From Porticoccus sp. (GTDB taxonomy: Bacteria; Pseudomonadota; Gammaproteobacteria; Pseudomonadales; Porticoccaceae), in NCBI GenBank assembly GCA_018066715.1, contig JAGPWA010000013.1:1-35269 (forward strand): a stretch of DNA of 35,269 nucleotides, given 5' to 3'. The notes under the pieces are model-generated. The model did not search any database. It saw nothing but the letters and a program-made list of their open reading frames with translations, and was not told where the DNA came from. Below are positions 31,436 through 34,053 of this stretch, one piece after another. How positions within the stretch are numbered: the stretch's first letter is position 1; every line of letters begins with the position of its first letter. The translations under genes and the position numbers were made by a program.

Positions 31436-32584
31436 CTACTTTTCTTGTCCGTCGCGGTTTCGGATCAGCTCAAAAAAGTGGTCAAACAATGGGGCGGCAT
31501 CATGGGGTCCAGGGCTAGCTTCCGGGTGCCCCTGAAAACTAAACGCAGGCTTATCTGTGCGATGAATGCCCTGAAGCGACCCATCAAACAACGAGCTGTG
31601 TGTAGCGCGAAGATTTTCTGGTAGCGAGTCTTCATCTACAGAAAAACCATGATTTTGACTGGTAATCATCACCGTACCTGCATCAAGGTCTTTTACTGGG
31701 TGATTGGCCCCATGGTGACCAAACTTCATTTTTACTGTTTTGGCACCACTGGCCAAAGCTAATAACTGATGCCCCAGACAAATACCAAATACAGGGATAT
31801 CTGTTTCAAGAATTTGCTGAATCGCCTCTATGGCGTAATCACAAGGTTCGGGATCACCTGGGCCATTTGACAGGAAAACACCGTCAGGATTCATGGCCAA
31901 CACCTCAGATGCAGGCGTTTGCGCTGGAACAACAACAAGGTCGGCCCCGCGATCTACCAGCATCCGTAATATATTACGTTTGGTACCAAAATCGTAGGCA
32001 ACGACCTTGTAGGGCTTTTCTGCCGGTTGCGTATAACCCTTACCCAGAGCCCAGCTGCCCTCGCCCCATTGGTAGGCTTCTTGAATCGACACCTGTTTAG
32101 CGAGATCTACACCCTTCAATCCAGGAAATTTTCGCGCAGCCGACAACGCCTTATTTTCGTCCAGATCACCCGCCATGATGCAGCCATTTTGTGCACCTGT
32201 CTCACGAAGAATCCGAGTTAGCCTGCGGGTATCGATTTCCGCAATACCTAGAATATTATTGGCTTTAAGGTAGCTATCCAGATTCTGCTCAGAGCGGAAG
32301 TTACTCGCCAACAGAGGTAGGTCACGTATCACCAGGCCGGCAGCCCAAATACGATCTGACTCTTCATCCTCAGTATTGACACCAGTGTTGCCGATATGAG
32401 GGTAAGTCAGCGTAACAATCTGCAGAGCATAGGATGGATCAGTCAGGATTTCCTGGTACCCGGTTAATGCTGTATTGAATACCACTTCACCACTGGAAAT
32501 ACCTTCAGCACCAATGGAAACGCCCCTAAAAACCGTGCCATCCCCAAGGACGAGAATAGCGGGCCGGCGGGTATGGGTATTCAA
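31436..32584 (-). CDS. carA: carbamoyl-phosphate synthase small subunit (glutaminase)
   Basis: CarA hydrolyses glutamine and passes ammonia through a tunnel to CarB. The N-terminal CPSase domain (about 8-150) contains [17 protein letters not shown]. The class I glutamine amidotransferase domain (about 193-375) has nucleophile C269 in FGICLGHQ, with H353 and E355 in [11 protein letters not shown] completing the triad. The start is a TTG at 32584 ([17 protein letters not shown], 382 residues) preceded by a very strong GAGGAGG at five bases; there is no ATG at this place. A terminator-like hairpin lies about 93 bases upstream in the leader. Confidence 0.97.
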
Positions 32585-32898
32585 TGCAACCTCCTCAAAT
32601 CAATTGCGGATATAAACCACTCTACACCGCTGACTCAGTGCGCGGCCTAAGAGTGAATTTAACCAAGAACAAACTGTAAAAAAGCGAGATGAAACCGTAT
32701 GTCTCACCTCGCTTTAAAATTTTCTATTCTGCCAACACCCCCTGTGTTTACGAGGCATTTCGCACCGGCAGAAACTAGCCGAACATTCTAGGCTAAGCAC
32801 TACAATCTGTCTAGCCAATCTGCCTCATACACCTCAATTAATCCAGCGGGAATGCCCTACAGATCCTGCTACCCAATCACTTTATAATCCCGCCCAAA
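32585..32898. other. gene-free carA leader and spacer
   Basis: This 314-base gap holds the carA ribosome binding site, the terminator-like hairpin described separately, and the region upstream of the plus-strand TonB-receptor remnant. I see no convincing sigma70 pair for carA. A TGAAT half-site near 32653 recalls an arginine-repressor box but has no partner half. Repeats of CTAGCC/GGCTA occur near 32774-32815 without clear meaning. Confidence 0.4.
32678..32716 (-). terminator. terminator or attenuator hairpin in the carA leader
   Basis: On the minus strand a 15-base-pair stem with two G-U pairs (arms 32701-32715 and 32681-32695), a five-base loop and a run of six T. Strong enough to be an intrinsic terminator, it lies about 93 bases before the carA start and well past the dapB terminator, so it is not needed to end dapB. 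It may be an attenuator controlling carAB, or a relic; on the plus strand its tail is TTTAAAATTTT, so it may also work that way. Confidence 0.7.
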
Positions 32899-32913
32899 AT
32901 GATAATAATCATG
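32883..32913 (+). promoter_or_regulatory. -10 element and Fur-box-like palindrome before the TonB-receptor remnant
   Basis: A TATAAT (32883-32888) is followed at 32899-32913 by ATGATAATAATCATG, a palindrome with ATGAT / ATCAT arms and a GATAAT hexamer, similar to Fur boxes. The arrangement, an operator covering the start of transcription, is that of iron-repressed genes. There is no clear -35. As the downstream ORF resembles a TonB-dependent receptor, iron control would make sense, but this is inference. Confidence 0.4.
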
Positions 32914-33168
32914 CAAAGAATTTACCCATCGTCACATTTTCATGTGTGCTTGCTGTTGCTGCTCGTCAACCAGGTCACGCTTGCCGGGGTTTCCACTCGA
33001 GAGATGAACAGTAAGTTCCCCCGTGATCTGGAGGTCATGATTGACGGCCAGTCCATTTATGACCCTTTACTTTCAGGGTTAGAGTGGCGCTCTACCGGTA
33101 TTACTGTTCATGACATCATCAACCAGTATGAAGACACGCTCACCTTTGGATTAACACTGAATTTTTGA
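32899..33168 (+). pseudogene. collapsed TonB-dependent receptor remnant (signal peptide, plug piece, last strand)
   Basis: An 89-residue open frame on the plus strand. Residues 5-30 (MQRIYPSSHFHVCLLLLLVNQVTLAG) look like a signal peptide; the upstream ATG lies inside the Fur-like palindrome, so the ATG at 32911 may be the real start. Residues 32-68 (STREMNSKFPRDLEVMIDGQ, then SIYDPLLSGLEWRST) match the plug domain of TonB-dependent receptors, where FxRxLxVxIDGxSxYxPLxxGxxW is typical. The end, TLTFGLTLNF, looks like the final beta strand with terminal Phe. A receptor is normally 600-900 residues, so about 70 residues before the plug piece and several hundred after are missing, yet the frame is kept. 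No Shine-Dalgarno sequence is visible. It may be a relic or a small exported protein. Confidence 0.6.
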
Positions 33169-33181
33169 TCTATTCATCAAC

Positions 33182-33213
33182 AAAAAAGGCCACCCCTAGG
33201 GGTGGCCTTTTTT
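33182..33213. terminator. perfect bidirectional terminator between the receptor remnant and dapB
   Basis: A fully palindromic element: six A, GGCCACCCC, TA-centred turn, GGGGTGGCC, six T. It lies 14 bases past the remnant stop on the plus strand and 15 bases past the dapB stop on the minus strand, so it serves both convergent transcripts. Confidence 0.95.
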
Positions 33214-33228
33214 GTAAAAATCTACAGC

Positions 33229-34053
<825 letters not shown>

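Follow-up and report, generated by a model that had tools for sequence, protein, structure and literature searches.

A short open reading frame between carA and dapB in a Porticoccus genome is very probably the in-frame relic of a TonB-dependent receptor gene

The open reading frame (ORF) at 32899–33168 on the forward strand of the window (the whole stretch of 35,269 nucleotides of Porticoccus sp. analysed here) runs from ATG to TGA over 89 codons and is very probably an in-frame pseudogene relic of a TonB-dependent receptor, left by ordinary gene decay. A close relative (G016) has an intact homologue at this locus, the ORF consists of collinear fragments of that homologue with losses between them, and its dN/dS of 0.46 compares with 0.055–0.118 in neighbouring genes and intact receptors. 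The original prediction had weighed such a relic against a small exported protein; the relic is strongly supported by the intact gene, by an alignment in three blocks, and by an independent wreck of the same gene in a second relative (G009). In the part of the literature that our search reached, we found no publication on the subject.

The ORF lies within the 644-base spacer that separates carA (31436–32584, reverse strand) from dapB (33229–34032, reverse strand). The names carA, dapB and dnaJ were read from the translations, the first two in agreement with the original prediction. A Pfam search of the 89 residues returned no family at E 10, though the plug similarity that had been predicted was recovered by profile in NCBIfam, where the ORF matched NF053590 (TOL_0244 family TonB-dependent receptor) at E 1e-7. 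This match places ORF residues 31–73 on profile positions 70–112 of 604, scoring 31 bits where the cut-off is 645, so that a complete plug domain (PF07715) is lacking. The beta-barrel (PF00593) is likewise missing, with 1614 nt absent relative to G016 and about the last 17 residues remaining. When the ORF was compared with 58 genomes (its own included), 37 gave matches at a threshold of E 1, for the most part to the plug block (residues ∼29–73), and a scan of genome contigs found 10 loci in Colwellia, Psychromonas and Vibrio records that matched residues 30–73 only (36–41%).

The genes dapB and carA are both present in all 17 genomes of the genus (own included), among which G016 is the nearest to the window genome by either gene (97% and 96% respectively). 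Its carA–dapB spacer is 2476 bases long and holds an intact receptor of 701 aa (L049, 7185–9290) within a single open frame of 720 aa that takes in all three blocks. Pfam recognizes both Plug (E 2.9e-15) and barrel (E 1.2e-20) in this protein, and its best match among solved structures is to colicin I receptor chains (E 7.2e-19). Its best NCBIfam match is again NF053590 (E 4.8e-59), and even this intact receptor, at 200.5 bits, scores under the 645-bit cut-off. The plug piece of the window ORF and the plug and barrel of the G016 protein thus resemble the TOL_0244 family and CirA-like receptors, from which the window ORF differs in retaining only ∼85 of 701 residues, with neither a full plug nor a barrel.

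The search for full-length homologues that align in two or three blocks, suggested with the original prediction, yielded the G016 receptor in three. At the protein level, window residues 2–35, 29–73 and 69–89 align collinearly with the G016 receptor frame at 68%, 71% and 67% identity, and the three elements that had been predicted (a signal-peptide-like start, a plug piece and a terminal strand ending in Phe) all fall within this alignment. DNA alignment and codon offsets reveal three gaps, each a multiple of three in length: 6 nt near the start, 216 nt between the signal-peptide stretch and the plug piece, and 1614 nt between the plug piece and the last strand. This is in keeping with the proposal of two large deletions that both preserve the frame. 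Block 1 (32911–32985, forward strand like all parts of the ORF) corresponds to receptor residues 7–31, and the hydrophobic beginning of the ORF is signal-peptide-like on the strength of its homology to the G016 receptor start. The first large deletion junction (32986–32988), where GG fits both sides, leads into block 2 (32986–33113), the plug piece matched by NF053590, which corresponds to residues ∼104–146. The second (33113–33117), inspected for a shared repeat, has no clear one, and is followed by block 3 (33117–33165), the C-terminal strand made of about the last 17 residues.

Comparison of the dapB–carA spacer among relatives, also proposed at the outset, revealed a different wreck in G009 beside the intact gene of G016. 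The G009 spacer (648 bases) contains a gene-like beginning and then jumps to receptor residues 634–701; this C-terminal piece of 68 residues has 60–64% identity, is split over two frames and contains an internal TAA, while the ORF at the start breaks off after 45 aa as listed from GTG, or after 29 aa if counted from the ATG corresponding to block 1. Receptor sequence occurs in three of the 17 genus spacers (window, G016 and G009), and tblastn with the receptor gave chance-level matches only in the other 14 (best E 1.1). With the short ORF as tblastn query, the window and G016 alone matched among the 17 spacers, the latter through its long gene. The window ORF lacks residues 634–681, and no trace of residues 104–146 was found in G009. 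Because different pieces are kept, neither short form derives from the other, which points to an ancestor with the long gene and to independent losses; judging from these spacers, the receptor gene was lost twice, and the retained pieces speak against the short form as the ancestral state.

We compared substitution patterns using Nei–Gojobori counts between the window and G016, that is, for one sequence pair with the one collapsed sequence known here. The 83 codons compared in the ORF carry 13 synonymous and 21 nonsynonymous changes, with dN/dS of 0.27, 0.45 and 1.5 in blocks 1 to 3. The same measure gives 0.059 for dapB, 0.067 for carA and 0.055 for dnaJ. As further controls, five of the six plug-bearing receptors of the window genome (the sixth, on C110, was left out) were each compared with the best-matching one of six stretches of G016, giving 0.080, 0.098, 0.095, 0.118 and 0.103; in the first of these pairs dS is saturated (2.16), identity is 74% and orthology is uncertain. 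These intact receptors range over 0.071–0.141 in their first 170 codons and 0.07–0.34 in their last 20, and since they too are higher at the end, the block 3 ratio says little. The first control pair alone, trimmed to a composite with the layout of the window ORF, gave 0.079. The excess of nonsynonymous change in the ORF is significant by Fisher's test both against the neighbouring genes taken together (p 6e-7) and against the two receptor pairs with the least divergence (p 0.004 and 0.0004).

Half-neutral divergence predicts 21.7 nonsynonymous changes among the 34, close to the 21 observed, while full neutrality on both branches predicts 25.9 and is mildly rejected (P 0.04). The shortfall is expected with G016 intact and its branch constrained, but it also fits weak constraint in the window, which a single pair cannot separate. 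Conservation was scored over 28 relatives (loci L003–L030, with the window, L001, and G016, L002, left out), a scoring that covered the sequence ahead of the C-terminal block. Of 30 scored columns with conservation of 60% or more, 21 are matched by G016 and 18 by the window, which gains none; the plug residues changed in the window only are Gly109 (79% conserved), Arg125 (96%) and Phe132 (71%). On these comparisons, constraint on the ORF is relaxed.

The original prediction had judged the ORF too orderly for the usual outcome of random decay, a view that these estimates do not bear out. Two large deletions would both keep the frame by chance once in nine cases, or once in 27 if the 6-nt gap is included, and the chance that 17 or 34 neutral substitutions introduce no stop is 0.60 or 0.38, a figure that ignores small frameshifting indels and is in truth somewhat lower. 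The joint chance of an open frame is thus ∼4–7%, or 1.4–2.2% if the small gap is counted, and since the ORF was noticed precisely for being open, its open frame is no strong evidence of function. The terminator counted as part of that order is also intact in the wrecked G009 locus.

The features around the ORF had been counted towards that order, and the predicted −10 element is indeed present: TATAAT at 32883–32888 (forward strand) is common to the window and the intact G016 gene, and altered in G009. A promoter scan did not return it as a second hexamer, and the number of sites found was about one above the shuffle mean of 1.0. For the predicted Fur-like palindrome, the best 19-mer, at 32895–32913 (forward strand), agrees with a Fur consensus at 14 of 19 positions; G016 also reaches 14 of 19, at an overlapping but non-identical position, and G009 reaches 11. 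A score of 14 of 19 is attained in two of 440 80-base stretches of the window, one of them presumably the ORF's own. The resemblance is weak, though it would fit an old iron-regulated receptor promoter. Any transcript of the ORF would presumably arise from that old promoter.

The predicted terminator is likewise real as a structure, a terminator-type hairpin with an A run and a T run at 33180–33215, between the ORF and the convergent dapB, although a pattern scan for terminators does not list it. It is no evidence that the ORF is still a transcription unit, since it is flanked on either side by A and T runs, faces the convergent dapB, and survives intact not only in the window and G016 but also in G009, where the ORF is destroyed. 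To call it simply dapB's own terminator goes too far: it is degraded in G011, and in the 13 other genus members inspection by eye of the last 120 spacer bases revealed no comparable hairpin followed by a T run; a hairpin in G006 has no such run next to it.

A small exported protein with its own role, still induced at low iron, would account for a frame that two large deletions and 34 substitutions have left open, for a signal-peptide-like start common to G016, and for TATAAT and the Fur-like stretch, both shared with G016. We nevertheless consider it very unlikely, given the relaxed substitution pattern, the loss of the plug Gly, Arg and Phe, the absence of most of the plug and barrel, and the broken frame in G009. 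A protein of this kind also has no short open counterpart: in a search of 112 genomes of the family at E 0.01, 64 had a match, no short open frame besides the window's was found, and among the matches listed all non-window frames were at least 570 aa, with the one exception of a 120-aa stretch in G016 (C24) that contains three stops. At E 1, in the 58 genomes, a few weak matches to shorter frames appear (E 0.06–0.8; e.g. 179 aa at E 0.3, 266 aa at E 0.36 and 376 aa at E 0.07). More specifically, the in-frame collapse might have created a new Fur-regulated exported peptide of 89 aa, kept for its own role, for example in binding the old receptor's ligand or in engaging the outer-membrane assembly machinery via its terminal strand; this seems to us most improbable.

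It is hardly credible either that the assembly created the short form and that the gene is longer or intact in the organism itself: the genome is assembled in 153 contigs, but the two separate in-frame gaps and the changes at conserved plug residues point to real decay, an independent wreck stands at the same place in G009, and receptor matches elsewhere in the window genome reach at most 46% identity.

Decay of a single ancestral gene would thus account for the locus as follows. The three genomes (window, G016 and G009) would descend from an ancestor with a full-length receptor of ∼700 aa, plug and barrel included, encoded on the forward strand of the dapB–carA spacer. On the way to the window genome, two deletions (216 and 1614 nt) and the 6-nt gap would by chance have fallen in frame, leaving the signal-peptide-like start, a piece of the plug and the last strand, while in the G009 lineage another deletion, a frameshift and a stop would have ruined the same gene. 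We infer that the remnant in the window has no function.

Pseudogene relics can read as small hypothetical proteins. The ORF resembles such relics in being made of collinear pieces of a gene that is intact at this locus elsewhere, in its relaxed constraint and in the independent wreck, and differs in that both large deletions are in frame, hence it passes for a small gene. The locus exists in three states among related genomes, with the receptor gene intact in one, collapsed in frame in another and independently wrecked in a third. A small ORF that is open, begins like a signal peptide and has promoter signals can evidently be debris, which calls for caution in small-protein annotation. The case opens no new question.

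Searched with the G016 receptor at E 1e-30, the window genome gave no match, so the idea that a close paralogue had made the receptor dispensable finds no support. At E 1 it yields the two relic pieces, plug and barrel matches at 25–35%, a piece at 46% at the end of contig C28, and a further weak match. Receptor pieces lie at the ends of contigs C28 and C133. G016 has a second receptor (C5, 711 aa) that is 35% identical to the lost one, and the window genome may, from these searches, lack a receptor of this type too.

The carA end of the spacer has features of its own. A terminator-like hairpin on the carA strand (32680–32721, reverse) lies ∼95 nt upstream of the carA start, with 15 pairs followed by a T run; Rfam at the gathering threshold returned nothing for it. 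The most stable 42-nt stretch in the 260 bases upstream of carA is such a hairpin in all 17 genus genomes, 82–149 nt from the start (compared without a shuffle control), and in G014 an apparent C–G to T–A exchange was noted by eye. Upstream of the hairpin is a promoter-like TAGACA-17-TAGAAT (10/12; 32785–32813, reverse), one of two sites in the stretch against a shuffle mean of 1.0; with this candidate promoter, the hairpin, which could be a carAB leader attenuator, would sit in the carA leader. Among the BLAST matches listed, the first 15–20 bases of the G016 spacer find a counterpart in 15 of the 16 other genus spacers, G013 being the exception. The carA start itself is apparently TTG at 32584 (reverse), with GGAGG a few bases upstream.
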